Below, one piece after another: positions 1-32,925 of a stretch of 32,925 nt of DNA. Within the stretch, counting starts at the first letter, position 1. The number at the start of each line of letters is the position of its first letter. Source of the stretch: a virus. Under the pieces are notes generated by a model, which was not told the DNA's origin, did not search any database, and saw nothing but the letters and a program-made list of their open reading frames with translations. The stretch spans positions 1-32,925 of IMG/VR virus record IMGVR_UViG_3300038701_000746; one strand, written 5' to 3'. The translations under genes were made by a program, and so were the position numbers.

Positions 1-428
1 ACAGTTAAATCATTTAACTGGTTCTGGTTAAATTCTTTTACTAGTAAAGTTTCTTTACTACCTTTTCCCTTGTTAATATTACGATGAATTAATCCGTCGA
101 TGTCGATGTTTGTGCCAATTGACCATGCCTGCCCTTTATTACCTGCTTTACCGATTTTCACCAGCAAACGGTACTGAACCAGCTGGTCTAATGCGCTTGT
201 GATTGTCGGACGTGACAGACCAACGCCACCGAATCGACTAAATCCATCCTCAAACATCGACAGACTGATGTTGGCATACCCACGCTCGACTTTGTCCTGC
301 CACCCGTAAATGTGACGAACAGCGAACATGTACACCTTGTATTCGCTACCTGTCAACAGGTGCATCAAATCATCAACCACGAAATTACCAGTCTGAAACC
401 AACCGGGTACTACGTCAAACTTTGCCAT
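1..428 (-). CDS. Replication initiator, N-terminal part (lambda O-like winged helix; continues at the right end)
   Basis: The ATG at 428 follows a GGAGG ribosome site. The frame stays open to base 1 and continues in the same frame at the right end, giving about 316 residues over the join. Residues ~15-105 look like the N-terminal winged-helix domain of phage replication protein O: a segment beginning LLTGSEYKVYMFAVRHIYGW, then GLSRPTITSALDQLVQYRLL as recognition helix and wing. Such proteins bind iterons at the origin and recruit the helicase. The DnaB gene follows at once, which supports this role. The leader (429-621) carries a candidate antisense RNA. I see no separate helicase loader, so the C-terminal half may do that job. 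The family call is by motif, not by search. Confidence 0.8.
   Translation of the reverse strand, partial: MAKFDVVPGWFQTGNFVVDDLMHLLTGSEYKVYMFAVRHIYGWQDKVERGYANISLSMFEDGFSRFGGVGLSRPTITSALDQLVQYRLLVKIGKAGNKGQAWSIGTNIDIDGLIHRNINKGKGSKETLLVKEFNQNQLNDLT
2..126. repeat. Left copy of the 125-bp terminal direct repeat
   Basis: Bases 2-126 are identical to 32800-32924; the flanking bases (1 against 32799, 127 against 32925) differ. The repeat lies inside the initiator gene, whose frame is open through both copies. The simplest reading is an assembly overlap of a circular or circularly permuted genome, with the outermost base at each end unreliable, rather than a biological terminal repeat. Confidence 0.93.
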
Positions 429-468
429 TGTTACCTCCAAGTAACTAGTGGAATTATTGTACCGCGTC

Positions 469-3289: not shown

Positions 3290-3320
3290 ATGTGGACGTA
3301 ACCAATTGGCTACTCTCTAC

Positions 3321-3350
3321 ATTATACCATTGTTGTACAAAATGACACAA
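3321..3350 (-). promoter_or_regulatory. Promoter with TTGTACAACAAT operator core, driving the recombination operon
   Basis: Minus strand: TTGTGT, 18 bases, TATAAT. The spacer holds TTGTACAACAAT, two bases before the -10, as at the 7173-7202 promoter. CAATAG-g-CTATTG (3348-3360) lies just upstream and overlaps the -35. A shared regulator is inferred. Confidence 0.72.
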
Positions 3351-4800: not shown

Positions 4801-4829
4801 CGCTTCCTTCCTCAATTAATTATACACAG

Positions 4830-4872
4830 AACGTGTGGCAGGAATCGAACCTGCCAGAAACCGTTACACGTT
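4830..4872 (-). ncRNA. tRNA-like minihelix A (acceptor stem plus T-arm)
   Basis: Minus strand 5' to 3': AACGTGT (4872-4866), a 10-base linker, GGCAGG, loop TTCGATT, CCTGCC, ACACGTT (4836-4830). The 7-bp acceptor and 6-bp T-stem are perfect and the loop fits the universal tRNA T-loop consensus. D and anticodon arms are absent and no CCA is encoded. It is followed by TATAAT, 19 bases from the acceptor end in both copies or close to it, then the SD. The 5' strand overlaps the last codons of the 4864-5052 gene. Confidence 0.7.
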
Positions 4873-5637: not shown

Positions 5638-5669
5638 TTTAGCTTCCTTCCTCAATTGATTATACAAAA

Positions 5670-5711
5670 ACCACGTGGCGGGAATCGAACCCGCCTAGAA
5701 CCATTCGTGGT
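5670..5711 (-). ncRNA. tRNA-like minihelix B (acceptor stem plus T-arm)
   Basis: Minus strand: ACCACG (5711-5706), 10-base linker AATGGTTCTA, GGCGGG, loop TTCGATT, CCCGCC, A, CGTGGT (5675-5670). Relative to element A, the acceptor stem is almost wholly different yet still paired, and one T-stem pair changes A-T to G-C. A linker core AAYGGTTYT is shared. The T-run after the acceptor could also give weak termination. It lies 8 bases after the 5719-7119 stop. Confidence 0.7.
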
Positions 5712-5718
5712 GTGCTGG

Positions 5719-7119
5719 TTACACAGGTGTGCCGATTGTCAGGTAGCCATGATCTGGGTCAATCATGACCCAGTCGCTGTACAATGACGGAGTCGCATCT
5801 TCGCTGTCCGCGTCGGCGCGTTGGGCATACAGTCGCAGTTCGTTGTCCCACCACCCATCAACAAACACGTTCCATCCCTCATACGCGTCTGCGTCGAGAA
5901 TGTCGTCAATGTCCGCAATTGTCACTGGTTCGTCGCTGTCACCGAACAGGTCAGTTGTCAGACGGAACTGTTTTTCGAGCCGACCGTCCATCACGTTTGC
6001 CAGTTCCTCATATTTGCCGTGTAGATTGAACACGGCGTATTCCTGTGGCAATTCAATGGTGAGGTCGCCGTGATTTTCGTCGTTGTAGTCATCATCATCA
6101 TCTGCTGGTTCTGGGACTGTTACCATCAAGTCCCAGAGTGCAGTGTATTCGTTGTTGAAGTATTTCAGCAATCCACGTTTGACCAAAGCGTTGAGCGTGT
6201 TTTTGCTGATGCCAGCGATTGCCAACCAGTGACTGGTCTCTTTGCCACCACGACGCTCAATGAGGTCAACTGCGTGTTGCATCAGGTCGCTTAGGTCAAA
6301 ATCTTCGAGCTTCGGTGCTGGTGGATTTGGATTTTCGCGAGTGATTTGAGCAATGCCGACTGTCATCGTGTTGTCGCCACTGACAATTACGTATTCATCT
6401 GCTGACCACATGTGGCTGACTTGCCATTCCAGATTTTCGTGAGCAGATTTGAGCCAGACAATGTCGCCTGATTTCAGTGGAGTGTAGTTCCAATTGAGTG
6501 AAATGGTTTTGCCGTTGACTGACAGAAAATCCGCGCGACGTTCCGCATGGTAAAACGCAGTGATTTTGTTGTCTTTGAAGCATTCTTTTTCTTGACCAAG
6601 TGGTGTTTCGATTGTGATGACGTAGTCATCGTCGTCGTCTGCTGGTTCGGTGTCAGCTACCGGAGTTTCCTCCGGTGCTGGTGTGTCATTGCTGTCGTCG
6701 TCTGCTGGTGCTTCCTGTGCTTCAGCATGCACTTCCTTCACAATAGCCCAAAAAGATTCACGACGCTTTTCTTCCAGTTTTGCTTCGTATTCTTCCTGAA
6801 ATTTACGCTCACGCTCGATGCGTTCGGCTTCTTCGCGGTCACGTGTTTCCCAAAACTCAACAAAAATTTCACCGAGTTGCCATTTGTAATAGAAGTCAGG
6901 CGTACGCTCGCGCAAGAAATAACCTTGCTCAAGCATGTCCATCCAAAAGTAGCCATAACGACGTTGTGTTTTCCAGTTAAGGTTTTCCCACCATGTGCGG
7001 ATGTCTTCTGGTGTTTCCTCGCGGTCGCAAATGATGTGGTCAAAGTCAATGTATGTCATTTCATGCATTGCGCGGATGATGTATTGTGTTGCTTTGAATT
7101 TCATTGTTTGCTTTGCCAT
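5719..7119 (-). CDS. Large acidic modular protein, first gene of the strongest early-type promoter
   Basis: The 466-residue product is not one I recognise. N-terminal ~120 residues: aromatic and charged (TWWENLNWKTQRRYGYFW, KWQLGEIFVEFWETRD) leading to a long E/K/R helix, likely coiled coil. Then acidic linkers with EPADDDDDY appear twice (~160 and ~340), separating a beta-rich module (~170-270) from a helical segment containing SHWLAIAGISKNTLNALVKR, which looks like a helix-turn-helix, and a C-terminal acidic beta module. Being first after a consensus promoter with an operator suggests abundant early expression, perhaps in host takeover or as a DNA mimic; both are guesses. Confidence 0.85.
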   Translation of the reverse strand: MAKQTMKFKATQYIIRAMHEMTYIDFDHIICDREETPEDIRTWWENLNWKTQRRYGYFWMDMLEQGYFLRERTPDFYYKWQLGEIFVEFWETRDREEAERIERERKFQEEYEAKLEEKRRESFWAIVKEVHAEAQEAPADDDSNDTPAPEETPVADTEPADDDDDYVITIETPLGQEKECFKDNKITAFYHAERRADFLSVNGKTISLNWNYTPLKSGDIVWLKSAHENLEWQVSHMWSADEYVIVSGDNTMTVGIAQITRENPNPPAPKLEDFDLSDLMQHAVDLIERRGGKETSHWLAIAGISKNTLNALVKRGLLKYFNNEYTALWDLMVTVPEPADDDDDYNDENHGDLTIELPQEYAVFNLHGKYEELANVMDGRLEKQFRLTTDLFGDSDEPVTIADIDDILDADAYEGWNVFVDGWWDNELRLYAQRADADSEDATPSLYSDWVMIDPDHGYLTIGTPV

Positions 7120-7123
7120 TTCA

Positions 7124-7154
7124 ATTCTCCTCAGAATCCGAGGCGTTGCGCCTC
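7124..7154 (-). promoter_or_regulatory. Leader hairpins before the 466-residue gene, one holding the SD
   Basis: On the minus strand a GAGGCG-CAA-CGCCTC hairpin (7154-7140) is followed by ATTCT-GAGG-AGAAT (7137-7124), a 5-bp stem with the SD core in its loop, 4 bases before the ATG. Both lie in the short leader from the 7173 promoter. Confidence 0.65.
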
Positions 7155-7172
7155 TGTTTATATGATGTCTAC

Positions 7173-7202
7173 ATTATATAATTGTTGTACAACAATTGTC
7201 AA
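7173..7202 (-). promoter_or_regulatory. Consensus sigma70 promoter with palindromic operator
   Basis: Minus strand: perfect TTGACA (7202-7197), 18 bases, perfect TATAAT (7178-7173). The spacer is covered by the 18-bp perfect palindrome AATTGTTGTACAACAATT (7180-7197). A second TTGTACAA lies upstream at 7212-7219, centre 27 bp away. This is the best promoter in the window and is likely repressible. Confidence 0.88.
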
Positions 7203-7231
7203 GGACTAATTTTGTACAATTTTCAGGCAAC

Positions 7232-7257
7232 AAAAAACCGCATCAATTGACACGGTT
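7232..7257 (-). terminator. Terminator at the end of the late (tail) operon
   Basis: Minus strand: AACCG/CGGTT stem (7257-7253, 7240-7236) with a 12-base loop containing TCAATTGA, overlapping and followed by TTTTTTG. It separates the small membrane gene from the next promoter. Confidence 0.72.
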
Positions 7258-7280
7258 TGTTGTGTATTGCTCGGACAATG

Positions 7281-7511
7281 CTATTCTACCGGCGTTTGCG
7301 TGTTTTCGCCATTGGCAATTCGGATGTCGTTGATGTATTCCATGATGTCCACCAGCGCGTCATCCAACCGTGACTCCGTACGCATCGCCATTTCAGTCAA
7401 TTGTGTAATCAGTTCAGCGGTTTTGTCTGGTGGAAAACTGCGATGTTGCCAGTAAAACGCCAATACCACTGCCACCAGTACCAATACCTGCATCAATTCC
7501 TGAATTTCCAT
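7281..7511 (-). CDS. Small membrane protein with coiled coil (lysis candidate)
   Basis: The 76-residue product has an N-terminal membrane segment (LMQVLVLVAVVLAFYW, ~6-21), then HRSFPPDKTAELITQLTEMAMRTES and an amphipathic helix to the C-terminus. It is the last gene of the tail operon, the usual place of holins and related lysis genes, and has the size of a small holin or inner-membrane spanin. One membrane helix with an N-out/C-in or reverse orientation cannot be settled by eye. No endolysin lies beside it. Confidence 0.7.
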   Translation of the reverse strand: MEIQELMQVLVLVAVVLAFYWQHRSFPPDKTAELITQLTEMAMRTESRLDDALVDIMEYINDIRIANGENTQTPVE

Positions 7512-7521
7512 TGTTATACTC

Positions 7522-9450
7522 CTATGTGATTATGATTGTTTGCGTGATTTCGTATACCTCAATTGTAACCTGCACTCGACCTTGTCCGCTAGTGCACGCG
7601 ACCTCAATGTCATGCACCTGTCGCAATCCACCGCTCGCGTTCTGGATGGCATCGGTCAGCTCGGTAACATCTGCCACACGGTTGATGAATCCGCCACTCG
7701 GAGCAAGTGTGGCCTGACCGAATAAATCATTCGTCAAATCTGTGCCGTTCACAGACACCGTAACCGCAACAGGTGTCACGCCCGTGTTGTCGAAAATGCC
7801 GTAGGTCATGTCATGGGTGTGGTCTGGGATGGTGATGTCATGGGTGTGCGTGCCTGATGCCCCTTCGGTGTATAAATCAGCAGTTGCGCCTAGGTACGGT
7901 GCAAAGATTGTTAAATCGCCACTGAATGGCGGACCCGCATTTACAATATACTCTGCACCTGTCGTAAATGTACCAGACGTGTAACCCACCCAGCGAAACA
8001 TTCTATGCCTATGGTCTCCACCGCCTGCACTGGTCTCGGTGCTACCACCACCGGATGCGGTTGCCGTGACATTAGCCCGAAGTGGGCGCGTCTGTATGCG
8101 CATCCTGATTTGTTGCAACAATAGCGTCGTGTTCGTAAACTCAACAGGGATCGTGACGCTGTTGCTACCATCCATGTCCTCGTAGTACACATACGAACGC
8201 ACACTTCCAGTCGTTGTTGGTTGTAGATTGCGCAGGTTGATTTGCTCAATGGCATTCATCATCTGCTCGGCAGGGGTTGTCACGCGCTGGTCAACGTTGC
8301 TGATGGTCAGTGTCGCCGATGTACCCGACGAGCTGACGCTTTCATTGACATCCAAAATCCAGAAATCATCGCGGATGCTCAAATAGTCCACAAATCCTGA
8401 TTCAGTCTGTACTCGTGCCTTATAGTCCACGTGTATTTTGTCGCCGGGTTGAATCGTCTGCTGTACGTTTTTGACCGTGACGCTGTACTGTTCCTGTTGC
8501 TGTGTGTGTCGCTGTAAATCCTCAACCGCCGCGTCATACAGCGCATTCGCAGCCGCTACAATGTCCGTGTTTGTGTTGCCAGCTGGCGCGATTTCTTTGA
8601 ACTGTCCAACTTTTTGAATTGTGCCATACGTGCTGATGGAAGAGGCATCACTGATGTAATACAGCGTGCGCCCATCGCCTGCGGTCGTGCTCTGAATTGT
8701 GTATGGTGATGTGCGTGTCGATTTTTCCAGTGTTAGCGCAGCAGTTCCCTCACCAGCACCAATCGGCAACAGCCAGTTGTAAATCTGTTCGGATGTTTGC
8801 CCCTGTGACAACCGTTGCACCATCAACAGCTCACTGTTCTGGATGGTCTCTGTCGTCACAACCTCGATTTTGCTGATGCGTAGTCCGTTGTCATCTCCAA
8901 ACTCACTGATTTCCAGTGTCCGTGCTGTACTGCTCGACAGTCGCAGATGGTAGCCATAGCGGTCTGCGATGTTTTGAAGTGCCGCCAACACCGAAACGCC
9001 ATCATACCGCACGTCAATTGTATTTGAGGCGATGCTGGCATCCACTGTCGCTGTCCATCCTGTCGCAAACGCTAGCAGGTTATTTACAACGTTTTGCACG
9101 GTGTCACGGTACGTACGAGCCAATAGCGTGTTGGCACGTTTGAGCTCATCCAGTGCGTCAGGTCCGCTCACCTGCAATGTCACACCGCCTGATTGTTCGG
9201 TTATGTTACGCTGTCGGATGATGCCATCACCTAGCACACGCGCTGTCCCATCGAGCGTGGTGCCATAAATGCGCACACGTCGTTCATTGGTCAACAGCGT
9301 CAATGCTTGCTCATGAGTCCCAACCAATGACATGTTGAATGTGCCCGCACCATCAAACGCACGTCGGAATGATGCCGATTTTATAGCTGTGACAGGTCCA
9401 TCGCCCAATCGGTTGTAATTGTTGTCAAATACGTCACACCATACGCGCAT
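7522..9450 (-). CDS. Baseplate/tail-tip protein with His-rich fibre-like C-terminus
   Basis: The 642-residue product begins like siphovirus tail-hub proteins: MRVWCDVFDNNYNRLGDGPV, AFDGAGTFNMSLV, then a segment of DRYGYHLRLSSSTARTLEIS type with a mid-region of tail endopeptidase-like beta domains (GDKIHVDYKARVQ, FWILDVNESVSSSG). The C-terminal ~200 residues change character: HRHRMFRWVGYTSGTFTTG, then GTHTHDITIPDHTHDM, with paired His-x-His motifs as in trimeric fibre tips that bind metal. It probably forms the tail tip and contacts the host surface. Stop and downstream start are well spaced. Hub assignment rests on position and N-terminal pattern. Confidence 0.8.
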   Translation of the reverse strand: MRVWCDVFDNNYNRLGDGPVTAIKSASFRRAFDGAGTFNMSLVGTHEQALTLLTNERRVRIYGTTLDGTARVLGDGIIRQRNITEQSGGVTLQVSGPDALDELKRANTLLARTYRDTVQNVVNNLLAFATGWTATVDASIASNTIDVRYDGVSVLAALQNIADRYGYHLRLSSSTARTLEISEFGDDNGLRISKIEVVTTETIQNSELLMVQRLSQGQTSEQIYNWLLPIGAGEGTAALTLEKSTRTSPYTIQSTTAGDGRTLYYISDASSISTYGTIQKVGQFKEIAPAGNTNTDIVAAANALYDAAVEDLQRHTQQQEQYSVTVKNVQQTIQPGDKIHVDYKARVQTESGFVDYLSIRDDFWILDVNESVSSSGTSATLTISNVDQRVTTPAEQMMNAIEQINLRNLQPTTTGSVRSYVYYEDMDGSNSVTIPVEFTNTTLLLQQIRMRIQTRPLRANVTATASGGGSTETSAGGGDHRHRMFRWVGYTSGTFTTGAEYIVNAGPPFSGDLTIFAPYLGATADLYTEGASGTHTHDITIPDHTHDMTYGIFDNTGVTPVAVTVSVNGTDLTNDLFGQATLAPSGGFINRVADVTELTDAIQNASGGLRQVHDIEVACTSGQGRVQVTIEVYEITQTIIIT

Positions 9451-9905
9451 TATAACGTGACCAAACTACTCGCCGCGTAAATCGCAATTGCCAACAGTTC
9501 GTCTTTGTCTTCCTGCGATGCCGTCTTAAACGTGTTGATGAATGCCAACAGTCCAGCGCGTGCCTCATCGTTCTGGGCATATACTTGTTTCGCCGCCACT
9601 TTCATGTCTGCCATGCTACCGCCCATTTGCAACTGCTCAAACGCGGCATAAATCGCGCCCATGTGGATGGATTCCACGTGTTTGTTTTTGCTCGCTTGAA
9701 ACAGTGCCATCGGCGAAACTTTCGATGGCGGGGTGTAACCAATGTCAAACAGCGTCGTGGCGTTGTCGATGCCGTACGCGATCAGGTTTGTACCACTGGG
9801 TAACAACACATCCGTCATGCGCACTGTGGCATTGTCTCGCACCAAATACACCGCACTCATGCGCCCATCTACCATCTCAGTGTATTTATAAACAATTGCT
9901 TCCAT
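9450..9905 (-). CDS. Hypothetical tail-region protein
   Basis: The 151-residue product lies between the adhesin-like and hub genes, coupled to both by TAATG overlaps. N-terminal half beta-like (AIVYKYTEMVDGRMSAVYLV, LLPSGTNLIAYGID); C-terminal half helical (MGAIYAAFEQLQMGGS, AKQVYAQNDEARAGLLAFINT, KDELLAIAIYAASSL). I do not recognise it; a tail accessory or fibre-assembly role is inferred from place only. Confidence 0.75.
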   Translation of the reverse strand: MEAIVYKYTEMVDGRMSAVYLVRDNATVRMTDVLLPSGTNLIAYGIDNATTLFDIGYTPPSKVSPMALFQASKNKHVESIHMGAIYAAFEQLQMGGSMADMKVAAKQVYAQNDEARAGLLAFINTFKTASQEDKDELLAIAIYAASSLVTL

Positions 9906-21084: not shown

Positions 21085-21103
21085 ATTATAACGCATGTGT
21101 CAA
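21085..21103 (-). promoter_or_regulatory. Late-promoter-like element, copy 2, before the scaffold gene
   Basis: Minus strand: TTGACACATGCGTTATAAT, with TTGACA only 7 bases from TATAAT. It is identical at 16 of 19 positions to the element at 26813-26831. It overlaps the MuF stop and lies 55 bases upstream of the scaffold ATG. Confidence 0.6.
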
Positions 21104-26812: not shown

Positions 26813-26831
26813 ATTATAACATATGCGTCAA
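26813..26831 (-). promoter_or_regulatory. Late-promoter-like element, copy 1, before the packaging operon
   Basis: Minus strand: TTGACGCATATGTTATAAT. TATAAT is preceded by TGT (extended -10) and TTGACG lies only 7 bases upstream. The same layout recurs at 21085-21103. It lies 62 bases upstream of the 26751 start and just after the nuclease stop. Confidence 0.66.
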
Positions 26832-26846
26832 TAATCATGTGTTGGT

Positions 26847-27440
26847 CTATAAATCCACGATGTGCACAGCATCCGCCACGTATTTGATGGGGATGTACAC
26901 GTTGTGCGTGGTTTTGGTTGCGTCCGTTGCAATGAATCGTGAACGAATTGACCGCCGTGCATCGCGTGTGTACGTCTGGAACGCACGTTGCATGTCATCT
27001 AATCTGATGATGTAGAGTTTGTGGACTGATGACCCATACCAGACGATGAGATGCGCTGTTGATCGTGCAGACCATCCCGACGTTGTAGCGCGGGCGGGTG
27101 GGTTGTCGTGGTAGATGCGGTAGGTCTCAAACAGCATGTTGTCTGTGCGCCCAATGTATTTGTCGGATTTAATTTCGATGCGCAGTGGGTCGTGGTTGCG
27201 GATGAGCTGGCGAATGGTGTCAGACACCGGGGCAGTTGATGGTGTCACCAGCACATCGACATCGTCGGTACGCATCTGGGGTTCATCGCGCACGTCCTGC
27301 AGTGACTGACACCATGGTTGTGATGCCAGCCATGCCATGACAATCGCCTCGGCAGATTTACCAACGTCCATGTAACCGCCATCATAACTAGGCGGTTTGT
27401 GTTTGCTAGGTCGTGACGAGTTTGCGTCCATGTATGCCAT
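26847..27440 (-). CDS. PD-(D/E)XK-type nuclease-like protein
   Basis: The 197-residue product has GKSAEAIVMAWLASQPWCQS (first helix with Glu), MRTDDVDVLVTPSTAP (metal-binding Asp), LRIEIKSDKYIGRTDNMLFE (E-x-K, followed by helix) and then a beta-rich LIVWYGSSVHKLYIIRLDDM. The order of motifs is that of the fold. It could be a replication or packaging-related nuclease or a restriction-like enzyme. The N-terminal residues are low complexity; a start at the fourth codon is also possible. Confidence 0.72.
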   Translation of the reverse strand: MAYMDANSSRPSKHKPPSYDGGYMDVGKSAEAIVMAWLASQPWCQSLQDVRDEPQMRTDDVDVLVTPSTAPVSDTIRQLIRNHDPLRIEIKSDKYIGRTDNMLFETYRIYHDNPPARATTSGWSARSTAHLIVWYGSSVHKLYIIRLDDMQRAFQTYTRDARRSIRSRFIATDATKTTHNVYIPIKYVADAVHIVDL

Positions 27441-27448
27441 CCATCAGG

Positions 27449-27976
27449 CTAGTTACGTATGTCACCTGTTATGTACTGATTATACTGTGTTTCCGCGTCC
27501 TGTGCCATCTGCTCACGTGCGAACCAGCCCATGTGCTCATACCACAGCAGTTTTGTGATGTCAGCAGACCGACCGACAGCCGATGTCGTGCCGTAGATGT
27601 CCGATGTCAACATCCGCATGTTACGCAACTGCAATCGGATGTTTTCAGTCGAGTAGTTGGCGAGGCGTGCCAGTTCCGGGTTTGTCACGTCAGGATGCTG
27701 TGACAGCGTTGCCAGAATCCGACGGTGCGCCGCCTTCATTGGGATGCCCAGAACGTCAGGATGTGGCACATTGATGTACCCTGCCACATTGAATAGGTGC
27801 AACCGTGTGTTGCGTGATGATGCCAGTTTTGCTGACGTGTTGATGGCGACGCGCAATCGGTACTCTGTGACACCTGACATTGCGTACAATTCGGACAGTG
27901 TGGCGTATGGATTCGTGTAGATGTAGTACAACGCGAGGTTCTGATTGTCCGTCAATTGAGTTTTAAAAAGGGGCAT
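27449..27976 (-). CDS. Multi-HTH family protein, one module (copy F1)
   Basis: The start at 27976 (MPLFKTQLTDNQNLALYYI) follows GAGGAAG; an upstream ATG 18 bases earlier has no SD. The 175-residue product has the module: first half YYIYTNPYATLSELYAMSGV, linker AGYINVPHPD, second half RRILATLSQHPDVTNPELAR with a helix-turn-helix, and the end motif WYEHMGWFAREQMAQDAETQ. This is the most divergent copy. It overlaps F2 by 14 bases. DNA binding is inferred from the HTH pattern. Confidence 0.77.
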   Translation of the reverse strand: MPLFKTQLTDNQNLALYYIYTNPYATLSELYAMSGVTEYRLRVAINTSAKLASSRNTRLHLFNVAGYINVPHPDVLGIPMKAAHRRILATLSQHPDVTNPELARLANYSTENIRLQLRNMRMLTSDIYGTTSAVGRSADITKLLWYEHMGWFAREQMAQDAETQYNQYITGDIRN

Positions 27977-28454
27977 TGTATAACGCTTCCTCATATGCTA
28001 AATCATCCAGTAGTTGCTGGTGGTTAAACCAACCCATATGTCCATAGAACCGCATACGAACAACCCAACCGCGTGAATCCACCTCATTAGCAAACCCGTT
28101 TTTGTAGAAAATCTGTCCGATGTAATGCACGATGCGCGGTGTCGAATACCCCAGTTGTTCAGCAATGACATCATTCGACACAAACGGATCGTCACGCCAT
28201 ATGCTGATGATTTTCTGTTCAATTTGTGACAGGCTACGGTCTGGCTCTGGAATGGTGATGTAACCGAGTTCAACAAACACGGATTTGGATGTGCTACTGT
28301 TTGACATGTGGATTTTTTGACACGCCATGCGAAATGTTGGGTAACTACATCCCGCAATGTCGCAGATTTCATACACGGTGTTATACGGATTGTGGTACAG
28401 CGCGATCAACGCGTCGCGCTCTTTGGGTGTGTGCCATTTTCGGAAAAATTTCAT
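27963..28454 (-). CDS. Multi-HTH family protein, one module (copy F2)
   Basis: The 163-residue product is one full module: ALYHNPYNTVYEICDIAGCS, LGYITIPEPDRSLSQIEQKI, then a stretch like GerE/LuxR DNA-binding domains (IISIWRDDPFVSNDVIAEQL, GYSTPRIVHYIGQIFYKNGF), and the end motif FYGHMGWFNHQQLLDDLAYE. The second half matches the LuxR pattern of L-x2-E-x-x-I-L, E-I-A-x2-L-x-x-S and a final helix ending in K-N-G-F. It couples to the next gene. Confidence 0.8.
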   Translation of the reverse strand: MKFFRKWHTPKERDALIALYHNPYNTVYEICDIAGCSYPTFRMACQKIHMSNSSTSKSVFVELGYITIPEPDRSLSQIEQKIISIWRDDPFVSNDVIAEQLGYSTPRIVHYIGQIFYKNGFANEVDSRGWVVRMRFYGHMGWFNHQQLLDDLAYEEALYNAPF

Positions 28455-28456
28455 AA

Positions 28457-29431
28457 TTAGACTCCTAATTGTTGTTTGTATTGTCGGTTCGCGTCCGCTT
28501 CCAGACGTGCGCGGTCAAACCAGCCCATCCACCAGTAGAATGCCAGTCGGCGATGCATGGAAGCTGATTCGTATTTTTCGCGGTAGCCATACACGTCATA
28601 AATGCGGTCTGCAGCCTCGGCAACCTCCCAGTCAGCTATGCCTGCCATTGCTGCAATCTGTTTTCGTGTCGCTGATGGATGTTGTCGCCATAGATTCATG
28701 ATGCGCAAATCATCGTCTGACAAATATGAGGAACTCATCAGGTGTGGCACACGCACGTAACCCAGACGCATGAAAAACTCCACACGGCGCACACCAGTTA
28801 ATCCTAGCCGTCGCCATATTTCATCATAAACACCAGACGATGAGATGGACAATTCACCGATGCGCTGTTTCGTGTCGAACGGGTTCATGTACAGGTTGTA
28901 CAGGTAATCATGCTGTGTTTCTGTCAGATGAGTCGGGAACAGTTCCAAGGCGAAAAAATCACCACGTTCCAGCGCGTCAGCATCGGCATTCATTGCGTCA
29001 CGGTCTAGCCAGCCCATGTATTCATACCATCGCAACTGATCGCTGCGTTTGCTGGATGAGAAGTCATCAAATCCGAGCGATGCCATCAGTCGCCGTGACA
29101 CGTCTGCCACCCGTGAAATACTGACACCGAGCGCGGTTGCGGTTTCGGTGTAATTGTCTGCTGGGTGCGCACGCCAATGATGCAAGATGGGCGTTGCTAG
29201 CGCGGGCAACTTAACCGAAACATGCACACGACTGATGGTGATGTCGAGGTAACCAAGCGCGTCCATCACATGCAGGACTGTTGGGTACGCAACTTCTGGA
29301 CAGATGGTTCGTGCGATTTTGCGCAATGTTGTCAGTGGTGCTGGTGTACCATGCGGATCACGTAGCCACCACGCCAGACGATGACGCAACGGCAATGACA
29401 GGTGATGGATGTTGTTGCGTTTACTAGTCAT
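28457..29431 (-). CDS. Multi-HTH family protein, two modules (copies F3 and F4)
   Basis: The chosen start (MTSKRNNIHHLSLPLRHRL) at 29431 is 9 bases after GGAG; an ATG two codons earlier sits too close to it. The frame extends further upstream only across the 29424-29771 gene. The 324-residue product has module F3 (ending RWYEYMGWLDRDAMNADADA, ~120-165) and F4 (LYNLYMNPFDTKQRIGELSI, then LGYVRVPHLM, IMNLWRQHPSATRKQIAAMA, ADRIYDVYGY and end motif YWWMGWFDRARLEADANRQY). F4 is most like F6 in the 29768 gene and F3 like F5, so the two-module gene was duplicated whole. Confidence 0.82.
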   Translation of the reverse strand: MTSKRNNIHHLSLPLRHRLAWWLRDPHGTPAPLTTLRKIARTICPEVAYPTVLHVMDALGYLDITISRVHVSVKLPALATPILHHWRAHPADNYTETATALGVSISRVADVSRRLMASLGFDDFSSSKRSDQLRWYEYMGWLDRDAMNADADALERGDFFALELFPTHLTETQHDYLYNLYMNPFDTKQRIGELSISSSGVYDEIWRRLGLTGVRRVEFFMRLGYVRVPHLMSSSYLSDDDLRIMNLWRQHPSATRKQIAAMAGIADWEVAEAADRIYDVYGYREKYESASMHRRLAFYWWMGWFDRARLEADANRQYKQQLGV

Positions 29432-29771
29432 CGTCATTAGCTCCCATGATGAAATCTGCAATGCGCTGTTTTTCACGCATACGATGGATGCGACCGTCAA
29501 AATAAAATTTGTAATCGTGTGCCTCCACAGTTTCTGACAGCTGATTCGACAGTTGGCATTTGTCCACCCATTGCAGTTTTGGATGGACTGCCAGCAACAG
29601 GACGTTAAACGCGGTGTAAATGCGTCCGATTTCAATGAATGCGTCGTGTGTGTCCATTGCCAGTGGTACGAGTTCGTCGAGGCGTTGCATGAATTCCTCT
29701 GGTGACGTGTCCTGCAATTCTAGCAGTGCCAGTAGTGCGTCACGTTTTTGGTTTGCCTGTTCTAGTGTCAT
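29424..29771 (-). CDS. Small helical protein inserted between the multi-HTH genes
   Basis: The 115-residue product lacks the module. It is helical: ANQKRDALLALLELQDTSPE, EFMQRLDELVPLAMDTHDAF, EIGRIYTAFNVLLLAVHPKL, then KCQLSNQLSETVEAHDYKFY and an acidic end. Coupled by ATGA to the gene before and overlapping the next. I do not recognise it; a partner protein of the module family is possible. Confidence 0.72.
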   Translation of the reverse strand: MTLEQANQKRDALLALLELQDTSPEEFMQRLDELVPLAMDTHDAFIEIGRIYTAFNVLLLAVHPKLQWVDKCQLSNQLSETVEAHDYKFYFDGRIHRMREKQRIADFIMGANDDD

Positions 29772-30730
29772 ATTGTTGCTCCTAATTGTGAGTATTGTGT
29801 TTCCGCGTCCGCTTTCAGGCGTGGCACGTCAAACCAGTGCATCCACCAGTAGAATGCGAGCTGTTTAAAATTGCTGCGTGCCAATGGCATCTGATTATAG
29901 CCGTTTTGCTCATAAATTCTGTACACAGCACTGTTTATTGCCGATTCACTGACTCCAAGGCGGTCGGCTACTGTTTTGAGTGAATCACCGGGGTTCGCTT
30001 TCCAGTCACTGACAATGTTGAACTGATTGCCCCATTGTTTTTTTGTGATGTACCCCATATTGATGTAGCCTAGCGTCGTGAAAATCGCAATGCGTGACGT
30101 TGTGCCAAATACCGTCCGTACTGAATAATCGTACATAGACAGGTTACAGCCAGCTAATTCGACAATGTCGCCTCTGGAAGCGAACGGGTTCATGTACAGG
30201 TTGTACAGCACGTCACGTTTTGCAACAGTGATGCCTAGCGGAAACAATGGCGATGATGTGTCTGGTGATTGCAAAAACTGTATGTCAGCATCCATCATGT
30301 CACGGTCTAGCCAGCCGAGATGGTTGTACAATCGCAATCGTGCCAGATCACGACCAGCAACGGGTGGACACCCGACCTGATGAAACAATTTAGCACCGCG
30401 AACCATCACGGTGCTATATGTATACATGATTGCAGATGCGGTTTCAGCGTACGTCGCTGATGGATGTTGACGCCAATATTGCAGAATCTCGTAATCCGTT
30501 TCACCGTCCAGTTCTAGTGACTGAATGTCGGTGATTGTGATGTAACCCAGCGCGTTAAACAGTGACAATCGTGACAAATTGTCCGCATCTGGTGTCAATG
30601 TGTACACCAGACGCTGCATTTGTCGTCGGTTCATCAAATCTTTGAGGCGCGTAAACGGATTGCTTAGCAGTCGCACCAGCAATTTACGCTCCAACGGTGG
30701 TAGTTTTTTTAGATTCTGGCGGGCGTTCAT
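29768..30730 (-). CDS. Multi-HTH family protein, two modules (copies F5 and F6)
   Basis: The 320-residue product begins MNARQNLKKLPPLERKLLVR. F5: LLSNPFTRLKDLMNRRQM, LGYITITDIQSLELDGETDY, EILQYWRQHPSATYAETASA, end LYNHLGWLDRDMMDADIQFL. F6: VLYNLYMNPFASRGDIVELA, LGYINMGYITKKQWGNQFNI, ADRLGVSESAINSAVYRIYE, end YWWMHWFDVPRLKADAETQY. The repeated LYNLYMNPF and W(M)xWxDxxxxxADA motifs tie it to F1-F4. Its ATG overlaps the stop of the 55-residue ORF as TAATG. Confidence 0.82.
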   Translation of the reverse strand: MNARQNLKKLPPLERKLLVRLLSNPFTRLKDLMNRRQMQRLVYTLTPDADNLSRLSLFNALGYITITDIQSLELDGETDYEILQYWRQHPSATYAETASAIMYTYSTVMVRGAKLFHQVGCPPVAGRDLARLRLYNHLGWLDRDMMDADIQFLQSPDTSSPLFPLGITVAKRDVLYNLYMNPFASRGDIVELAGCNLSMYDYSVRTVFGTTSRIAIFTTLGYINMGYITKKQWGNQFNIVSDWKANPGDSLKTVADRLGVSESAINSAVYRIYEQNGYNQMPLARSNFKQLAFYWWMHWFDVPRLKADAETQYSQLGATI

Positions 30731-30897
30731 TATTTGCCACGCTGTGGTTTGATGAGAATGAATGTGAGTTTGTTGAATTTGCCCGTGGCTTCGGTGCTGA
30801 ACAGCGTCCAGCCGAGTTTGATGTAATCAGACACTTCCTGCACGTCGCGTGTGACGACGACGTTGTCGGAATAAATTGGTTGTGTTGGTACGTCCAT
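30730..30897 (-). CDS. Short 55-residue protein after the helicase gene
   Basis: This ORF falls below common length cut-offs. It starts at the ATG at 30897 behind an SD-in-loop hairpin and ends in a TAATG overlap with the next gene. The product reads MDVPTQPIYSDNVVVTRDVQ, EVSDYIKLGWTLFSTEATGK, FNKLTFILIKPQRGK: a short beta-alpha-beta pattern of the kind seen in many small phage ORFs that end LGWXLXXT ... F(I/V)L(I/V)K. It is not a shadow: no other gene uses this stretch. Confidence 0.78.
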   Translation of the reverse strand: MDVPTQPIYSDNVVVTRDVQEVSDYIKLGWTLFSTEATGKFNKLTFILIKPQRGK

Positions 30898-30916: not shown

Positions 30917-30965
30917 TAATTAATTGACAATGTAATTGTAAAATATGTTAGCGTTTTACACAATG

Positions 30966-32285
30966 CTAGAAACTGGATTGCTTCGAAAAGAATTGTGTTG
31001 TGTTTGTATTGAAATACACTGGTACGACACCCGGTGAGCCATGACGGTTTTTTGCCACGACAATTTCGCGTTCGTTTGGTACGTTTTCGTCAGGCTTCCA
31101 GAGTAACATCACACGCGCTGATTTTTCCTCGACAGCGGATGAGCGTTTCAAATCTGACAGCGATGGTTTGCCATCCGCGCCAGACCGTCCTATTTGATGT
31201 GTTGCCAGTATGCTGATGTTGTAGTCAATTGCAACAGATTCCAGCGATTCCATGATGGTGTTGATGCGTAGCCAATCCTGATCGGCGTGTGCTGATGTGT
31301 CCAGCTGTAAAATGCCATCCAGCACCAGCAAATCCAGTCCGTTACGTTGGATTTCCTGTTCTACCAGTGATGGCAAATCATCAACATTCAGGCGCGTGGT
31401 GCGTTTAAATCGCAACGGCAACTGACTGACCTGAGAAAATCCGCTGACGTACTTCGTGTACTGTTCGTCCGTAAATGCGCCACGTTCAATCGTTTGCACA
31501 GGAATACCCGTCGACATGGACATAATGCGGTTATTCATGGCAAATTGCGTCATTTCGCCACTAAATACCATGACACGTGCACCGTGTACCGTCTGCCGAT
31601 TGATGCCACGCGCCGCCGCGTTCAATGCAATGGTGAATACCGCCGCGCTTTTGCCTGCACCTGTGTACCCTGCCAACACATTCACATCGCCATAACGGAA
31701 ACCATCCAGCAGTTTGTCGAGGTCATGCAACCCGCTACGGATGCCCAACGTGTACTGTTTGTTCTGCTGGTACAGTTCACGATGTTGCTCCACAATGTCG
31801 AACGTGGTCGCGAGCGATGCGTCAAAATTCACCACATGATCGTCAATGTCTGGTGCTGACATCGATTTCAAATCCGCAATCATTTCATTAATGATGTCAT
31901 TCACTGGTGCGTCGTCCTGCAGTTTGGCATCCAGCTCGTCCGTGTATTCGTGCAATTTGCGTCGTACGGCGACACGTTTCACCATATGGGCATAGATTTC
32001 AGTGTGGCGTTCGCTGTCTAATGCATTAACCAGTTGCATCAGGTACGCACGCCCACCGATGGCATCCAGTGTTTTGTTCGATTGCATGGTGTCACTGAGT
32101 AGCATCAGATTCACATCGCCATATTGCGCCCAGATGTTTTGTGCTGTGGCGAAAATCAGACGGTGGCGTTCTAGCCACAAATCCGTTGGGTCAATGATGC
32201 GCTGGACAGTTAGGTACTGCCCAGTCATTACTGCTCCCATACACGCCATTTCGGCAGATTCTGAGTACAGTGTCGTTACGTCCAT
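30966..32285 (-). CDS. dnaB: Replicative DNA helicase, DnaB family
   Basis: The 439-residue product has the N-terminal helical domain (SAEMACMGAVMTGQYLTVQR, ~10-100), linker, and RecA-like domain with Walker A GYTGAGKS (~206-213), a Walker B strand in LDLLVLDGIL (~305-314) and the DnaB-type ILATHQIGRSGADGKPSLSD and LKRSSAVEEKSARVMLLWKP. It unwinds the replication fork as a hexamer; no primase domain is present, so host primase is presumably recruited. Its start overlaps the initiator stop by 10 bases, as with lambda O and its partner. Confidence 0.96.
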   Translation of the reverse strand: MDVTTLYSESAEMACMGAVMTGQYLTVQRIIDPTDLWLERHRLIFATAQNIWAQYGDVNLMLLSDTMQSNKTLDAIGGRAYLMQLVNALDSERHTEIYAHMVKRVAVRRKLHEYTDELDAKLQDDAPVNDIINEMIADLKSMSAPDIDDHVVNFDASLATTFDIVEQHRELYQQNKQYTLGIRSGLHDLDKLLDGFRYGDVNVLAGYTGAGKSAAVFTIALNAAARGINRQTVHGARVMVFSGEMTQFAMNNRIMSMSTGIPVQTIERGAFTDEQYTKYVSGFSQVSQLPLRFKRTTRLNVDDLPSLVEQEIQRNGLDLLVLDGILQLDTSAHADQDWLRINTIMESLESVAIDYNISILATHQIGRSGADGKPSLSDLKRSSAVEEKSARVMLLWKPDENVPNEREIVVAKNRHGSPGVVPVYFNTNTTQFFSKQSSF

Positions 32286-32925
32286 GGTGTCATTGTCTCC
32301 AAATATTCTCTAATTTCATCATTCATCAAATTGGGTGTGATTGTGTCGTACCCGAGCTCAATCTGTGCCTGTACAGTCAGATCAGGTTGCTGTTGCTGTG
32401 CTGGTGATGACGTTTTGTGACTGTTCAGGAATTCGACGTAATGCATCGTCAATTTACTGCGCTGGCGAACGTACGGCACATTAGGGTATTTTCGTGCGTA
32501 CCACTTCAGAAAATCCGTTACAGCGTGTTTTACATCATCTTTGTTGTCTGGTACATCCCCAACCATTTTATACGCATCACGTACCCCATTAATGACACTA
32601 TAAACAACATGATTGCCTGTTGGGATTGTGTCAGGTGTTGCATTGAACATCGGTTGAGCGACTGCCTCAATGACACCATCGCCGAAGGGGTTTTTGCGTT
32701 TCGTTTTAACGGGGGGCTGTCCGTCCGATTCATCGGGCGGGAAAACTTTGTCTTGTTTTTGATCTTGTGTTTGATTGGGTAAAGTTTTTTTACTAGTACC
32801 AGTTAAATCATTTAACTGGTTCTGGTTAAATTCTTTTACTAGTAAAGTTTCTTTACTACCTTTTCCCTTGTTAATATTACGATGAATTAATCCGTCGATG
32901 TCGATGTTTGTGCCAATTGACCATC
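32276..32925 (-). CDS. Replication initiator, C-terminal part (start lies at the left end of the window)
   Basis: This frame runs open from the right edge to a TAA at 32276. It first repeats the residues encoded at 1-126 (through WSIGTNIDIDG), then a polar linker rich in N, Q, K and T (about residues 128-165), then KTKRKNPFGDG and a helical C-terminal domain of ~130 residues (NGVRDAYKMVGDVP, FLKWYARKYPNVPYVRQRS). The linker is encoded by a dense cluster of AT-rich palindromes (32778-32858), the position of the origin in lambda O. The stop overlaps the DnaB start by 10 bases, so the two are translationally coupled. A separate ATG at 32650 is internal and not the likely start. Confidence 0.78.
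   Translation of the reverse strand, partial: WSIGTNIDIDGLIHRNINKGKGSKETLLVKEFNQNQLNDLTGTSKKTLPNQTQDQKQDKVFPPDESDGQPPVKTKRKNPFGDGVIEAVAQPMFNATPDTIPTGNHVVYSVINGVRDAYKMVGDVPDNKDDVKHAVTDFLKWYARKYPNVPYVRQRSKLTMHYVEFLNSHKTSSPAQQQQPDLTVQAQIELGYDTITPNLMNDEIREYLETMTPWT
32778..32858. other. Candidate replication origin: palindrome cluster inside the initiator gene
   Basis: Within ~80 bp lie GTAAA/TTTAC arms (32779-32793), a 23-bp near-palindrome with 11-bp arms ACCAGTTAAAT/ATTTAACTGGT around one C (32798-32820), the perfect palindrome TTTACTAGTAAA (32835-32846) overlapping a TAGTAAAG/CTTTACTA hairpin (32840-32858), and a repeat of GTTAAAT at 32825-32831. GTAAAGTTT(T/C)TTTACTA occurs twice as a direct repeat. 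The region is much richer in A and T than its surroundings and encodes the low-complexity linker of the initiator, as origin iterons do in lambda O. The 3' part is duplicated at 2-60 by the end overlap. Confidence 0.62.
32800..32924. repeat. Right copy of the 125-bp terminal direct repeat
   Basis: This is identical to bases 2-126. Joining the ends at this overlap gives a circle of about 32,798 bp and restores a full initiator gene in one frame. A 125-127-bp exact overlap is typical of k-mer assembly of a circular graph, which is an inference. Confidence 0.93.

Follow-up and report, generated by a model that had tools for sequence, protein, structure and literature searches.

A family of tandem helix-turn-helix proteins between the replication and late genes of a small tailed phage

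The DNA analysed (referred to as the window) comprises positions 1 to 32,925 of the IMG/VR virus record IMGVR_UViG_3300038701_000746, which derives from a small tailed phage. Bases 2-126 recur at 32800-32924, and this 125-bp end overlap closes the record into a circular genome of 32,798 bp. The main genes all lie on the minus strand and follow one another in the order nucleotide metabolism and recombination, initiator, DnaB helicase, module operon, a 197-aa gene, and packaging and structural genes. The features of the operon and its surroundings are as follows.

32276-32924 joined to 2-440, minus strand: O-like initiator gene across the circular joint, upstream of DnaB (assigned from sequence and position)
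30936..30965, minus strand: putative operon promoter TTGTGT-17-TACAAT (read from the sequence)
30730..30897, minus strand: 55-aa gene that heads this densely packed operon
30730-29768, minus strand: gene A, 320 aa, two modules
30269..30730, minus strand: N-type module of gene A, two helix-turn-helix (HTH) units, delimited by alignment and HMM
29768..30268, minus strand: C-type module of gene A plus stop, pairing with the C-type module of gene B
29771-29424, minus strand: 115-aa non-module gene inside the operon
29431-28457, minus strand: gene B, 324 aa, two modules
28970..29431, minus strand: N-type module of gene B, its ATG overlapping the end of the 115-aa gene
28457..28969, minus strand: C-type module of gene B plus stop
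28454-27963, minus strand: gene C, 163 aa, single module (AlphaFold model)
27976-27449, minus strand: gene D, single module; an alternative upstream ATG at 27994 is possible
26847-27440, minus strand: 197-aa gene in the slot between the modules and late promoter 1
25835-25422: HTH-bearing small terminase, separate from the modules

The six modules counted by the earlier note in four adjacent genes were recovered on the minus strand from 30730 to 27449 in the arrangement 2+2+1+1, as was the inserted non-module gene, which is the 115-aa gene between A and B. The block takes up 3282 bp, or 10% of the genome. The 55-aa gene and A are joined by a stop/start overlap (TAATG), A and the 115-aa gene by ATGA; the 115-aa gene overlaps B, B and C are 2 bases apart and C overlaps D. 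Given this tight packing, the genes are probably translated from one message. The putative operon promoter sits within an imperfect inverted repeat, TTGTGTAAAA...TTTTACAAT. No family match was found for the 115-aa gene in profile searches of the Pfam and PHROGs type.

The open reading frame through the circular joint looks like an O-like replication initiator, and inverted repeats within it (GTAAAGAAACTTTAC and CCAGTTAAATGATTTAACTGG) form a candidate replication origin. Elsewhere in the window, two 64-nt copies that are 81% identical (4802-4865 and 5642-5705, minus strand) resemble a tRNA T-arm (GGCAGGTTCGATTCCTGCC), after which come TATAAT and the next gene's ribosome-binding site; ARAGORN calls no tRNA.

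Genes A and B were split to give six modules of 154-181 residues (~155). Pairs of modules are 21-35% identical, and all fifteen Smith-Waterman scores lay 8.5-48 SD above those of shuffled controls. The motifs LYxLYxNPF, LGYIxIP and YxxMGWF..DA described previously are present in the modules. The N-type modules of A and B scored 153 against each other and the C-type modules 268, with cross pairs at about 100; modules of like type pair across the two genes, and a double gene was therefore itself duplicated, in agreement with the stepwise duplication that had been proposed. An HMM search of the window with the module yielded no further copy.

The structure of gene C was predicted with AlphaFold from an input of eight module sequences (mean pLDDT 86.8, pTM 0.79). 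The model consists of two four-helix HTHs, each closing with a short strand that carries LGYI in the first (helices 10-21, 27-34, 38-49 and 56-62) and MGWF in the second (helices 77-88, 94-101, 105-118 and 130-140), followed by an extra helix at 145-159. Of the single and double modules proposed for prediction by the earlier note, only the single module was thus modelled confidently; the double-module model was poor (pLDDT 63.9) and was left unused. The two halves of the module align with each other as profiles (hhalign E 6e-8, score 41; best of 60 column shuffles 14), and in gene D they are matched independently by Pfam, the first by MarR_2 and the second by HTH_24 at 24.3 bits, above the gathering score of 21.9 bits. 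Together with the C model, this last match places the modules in the HTH superfamily, with its tri- or tetra-helical core. Each module had been described as containing one LuxR/GerE-like HTH: the HTH stands, the half with LYxLYxNPF and LGYI is an HTH in its own right, which makes two per module and twelve units in the six modules, and the likeness to GerE is not specific, since AsnC/Lrp, MarR and HTH_24 score equally well or better, all of them remotely. The invariant residues are structural (the proline of each H1-H2 turn, LGY, G120, YxxMGW and the aspartate of the last helix). Variation is greatest in the two recognition helices, which contain 11-13% K/R, without enrichment, and several modules are acidic.

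The proposal that the modules belong to no known family held in searches of Pfam, PHROGs, NCBIfam and the PDB, all of which returned generic HTH matches only. Among 16 members, Pfam matched HTH_24 in eight, MarR_2 in seven and AsnC in seven (best E 7e-6 to 1e-5); PDB sequence matches of the modules were to Lrp/AsnC, AdcR, GerE and response regulators. Foldseek against the PDB and BFVD gave no match at E <= 0.001 and no protein with the two-HTH arrangement; its better-fitting matches were HTH proteins aligned over one unit only, and a regulator of Streptomyces phage Chymera reached a TM-score of 0.43. From the model and the HTH-only matches it follows that the fold class is HTH, in an arrangement absent from the libraries searched. 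Neither a confident non-DNA-binding fold nor an already characterised family, the two outcomes that had been named as counting against the family, was found.

No module homologue was detected by tblastn in 50,697 phage records, so that no relative from a cultured phage was found, and 84,980 species genomes gave none in two pattern scans; a scan with the helicase found no locus. Module relatives were found in five IMG/VR contigs. Single-protein and alignment scans of viral contigs returned L005 only, where D is complete (89% identical) and C partial, and a scan with the late-promoter DNA motif led to L105, L110, L111 and L118, in which divergent modules were then confirmed. The longest of these relatives, the genome behind L118 (G001, 30,341 bp; also L140/L147), is nearly complete and encodes six modules in five genes, arranged 1+1+2+1+1. 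Its block runs from DnaB through a homologue of the 115-aa gene (112 aa, 47% identity) just before the modules to the late promoter and the first late gene. The location between the helicase and the late genes pointed out by the earlier note is therefore found in the window and recurs in G001. Identity between the two genomes is 68% for DnaB, ~32% for the modules and 92% over 127 residues for the first late gene; their terminases, portals and remaining structural genes are unrelated. In a tree, each half of the G001 double gene falls with the corresponding halves of A and B, and one-to-one orthology of the six modules in the two genomes was unsupported, so their common count of six may be coincidence. 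The equal total is intriguing and rests on two genomes. A 97-aa gene before the G001 modules was considered as a half module and dropped (about 0-2 bits).

Comparison of window positions 26751-18000 with G001 gives the picture of a cassette swap, in which the replication block, modules and late promoter are common and the terminase, portal and capsid differ. The slot between the modules and the late promoter also varies, being filled by nuclease- or methyltransferase-like genes that differ from one relative to another: the 197-aa gene in the window, and T5orf172-like, ParB/methyltransferase and 202-aa genes in G001 (L140, reverse strand 6958-9699).

Among close orthologues dN/dS was 0.16 for D (window versus L005), 0.08 for the part of C and 0.26 for m6. 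On these alignments, the modules diverge rapidly, yet under purifying selection. The important function claimed for them on account of their size is in keeping with this selection and with their retention in a distant relative, and is weakened by the speed with which single modules are lost, gained or replaced.

Four promoter-like sites of two classes were identified, the late class being putative and named from position.

26813..26831, minus strand: late promoter 1, TTGACGCATATGTTATAAT, before the packaging genes
21085..21103, minus strand: late promoter 2, TTGACACATGCGTTATAAT, before the 21054-20458 gene, upstream of the major capsid gene
7178 (region 7165-7219), minus strand: early-type promoter, TTGACA, 18-bp spacer
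3326 (region 3313-3350), minus strand: early-type promoter, weaker TTGTGT, 18-bp spacer

Both late sites carry TTGACRCATRYGTTATAAT (0.09 expected at <=3 mismatches) and conform to TTGACR-N7-TATAAT, without a -35 hexamer at the usual place. This spacing recurs in the related contigs L005, L006, L008, L009, L010 and L011 and was found in 0 of 73 other phage loci; in L009 and L010 the promoter is preceded by other genes over ~1.5 kb (these contigs are short, and modules may lie elsewhere). A match to TTGACRCRTRTGTTATAAT was found in 39 IMG/VR contigs, of which seven, apparently module-free, have a second site of the same spacing.

The two early-type promoters share a TTGTACAA palindrome between -35 and -10 followed by a common ATTCTGAGGAGAATTG leader, and look like a regulated pair; at 7178 a perfect TTGTTGTACAACAA palindrome lies between the boxes (7182-7195). 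The TTGTACAA palindromes were also considered as module operators and set aside, as four sites against 0.9 expected could not be assigned.

Position, fold and retention together with the late promoter point to control of the middle-to-late transition in transcription, and we put the chances that the modules are tandem-HTH transcription factors for this switch at about even. Four paralogous DNA-binding proteins would be made in mid-infection from one packed operon after DnaB and, acting alone or as hetero-oligomers, would turn host RNA polymerase away from early genes and towards those for packaging, capsid and tail, presumably by activation rather than repression. Their candidate targets would be the -35-less TTGACR-N7-TATAAT promoters, the inverted repeat at their own promoter, or both. 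In favour of the switch are the two confident HTH folds per module, with HTH regulators as PDB sequence matches, the two promoter classes (early with 18-bp spacers versus late and -35-less) and the retention of modules and late promoter in G001 despite a different structural cassette. Against the modules as promoter readers, the recognition helices are variable and not basic, and the strong divergence of the modules contrasts with a late promoter that hardly varies. The modules cannot be the sole reader of the late-promoter motif, as it also occurs in IMG/VR contigs in which none were detected. A doubtful extension of the switch is that the modules, always six in total (twelve HTHs) but distributed over genes in different ways, assemble into one complex redirecting host RNA polymerase to TTGACR-N7-TATAAT.

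Because the helices diverge and lack positive charge, and because the motif occurs in contigs without detected modules, host takeover or counter-defence stays a serious, if unlikely, rival. Here the tandem HTHs would bind host DNA, RNA polymerase or a defence protein and diversify in an arms race. The steep divergence of the modules relative to DnaB and the first late gene would be expected, as would the difference between G004 and G001 in the module preceding m6 and the freedom of the recognition helices to vary around conserved structural residues. The low dN/dS values, however, indicate purifying selection, and the block stays with the replication genes and the late promoter instead of being scattered.

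Somewhat less probable again is a role as replication or recombination accessories of DnaB, in which the modules would be origin-marking or helicase-loading DNA-binding subunits. They lie close downstream of DnaB in both the window and G001, and the multi-HTH protein D5 of phage T5, annotated as necessary for both replication and late transcription, is encoded beside the DnaB-like D6. Gene C also weakly matches the DnaB_2/DnaD-like family PF07261 (E 0.026), but under its gathering score. The O-like initiator with its inverted repeats is already present as a separate gene upstream of DnaB, so replication initiation need not fall to the modules.

It is improbable that the modules are Q-like antiterminators, with the TTGACR box as the Q binding element and a hairpin at 26804-26790 as the terminator that they would override. 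They occupy the position of a late factor, the box falls in the stretch separating the -35 and -10 positions, and the hairpin, which is weak and has a T run, stands just after late promoter 1 and is kept in relatives, surviving a G.T to A-T change. Terminator-like sites are nevertheless no more frequent there than chance predicts, conservation extends over the whole region without singling out the hairpin, and searches of the modules against Pfam gave no match to Q antiterminators (PF06530, PF03589, PF06323). Q families are mutually unrelated, and the structural likeness of lambda Q to Q21 and to sigma region 4 is limited to the HTH (PMC7171158). Structural or packaging DNA-binding proteins for pac/cos recognition or genome condensation, as the many HTH units just before the packaging genes might suggest, are very improbable, because a separate HTH-bearing small terminase follows and G001 keeps the modules with an unrelated large terminase and portal.

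Returning to the transcription switch, known systems offer partial parallels. Proteins of the LuxR/GerE type share the four-helix HTH, and GerE (1fse) and NarL/DosR were among the PDB sequence matches, with a Foldseek TM-score of 0.64 on the target side for 6jqs. The modules differ in having two HTHs joined through LGYI/MGWF and in lacking a receiver or autoinducer domain; Pfam GerE gave no match above its gathering score (one of 16 members at E 0.031, below the cut-off). Phages like phiEco32 possess late promoters of unusual architecture that are read by a phage sigma factor with host RNA polymerase (PMC8948821). The late sites of the window are likewise unusual, whereas the modules showed no sigma region 2 match in Pfam and a weak HTH of the region 4 type only (E 0.015).

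T5 D5 resembles the modules in its tandem HTH-like units, in its place beside a DnaB-like helicase and in its annotation. Its family, PHROG 323, was the only PHROG match to span both HTHs of C (E 0.0035). D5 is, however, a single 255-aa protein without the common LGYI/MGWF signatures, and its comparison with the modules (hhalign probability 3%, E 0.017) reveals no homology beyond a single HTH.

With D5, the nearest functional parallels are the late regulators Ltr/RinA of staphylococcal phages (PMC13123087), whose genes, like those of the modules, lie at the end of the early cluster before a late promoter and the terminase. RinA, Ltr and ArpU of Gram-positive phages are each one protein of ~130 aa, in contrast to four genes that together encode six double-HTH modules, and A-D had no NCBIfam match to the RinA/ArpU models at E <= 0.1. 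The homology of G001 and the window around late promoter 1 extends upstream only to about 7 bp from the TTGAC box, so that common upstream repeats are lacking. As judged from these comparisons, neither Ltr/RinA nor T5 D5 is homologous to the modules beyond the HTH. Within the known phage HTH regulators, the modules constitute a real, undescribed family of tandem-HTH proteins, built on an unusual two-HTH unit that is multiplied, fused and split among phages. Should these units read DNA, the family would provide a series of paralogues on one scaffold from which rules of DNA recognition could be learned, and a first handle on gene timing in these uncultured phages, for which the late promoter class is a directly testable prediction.
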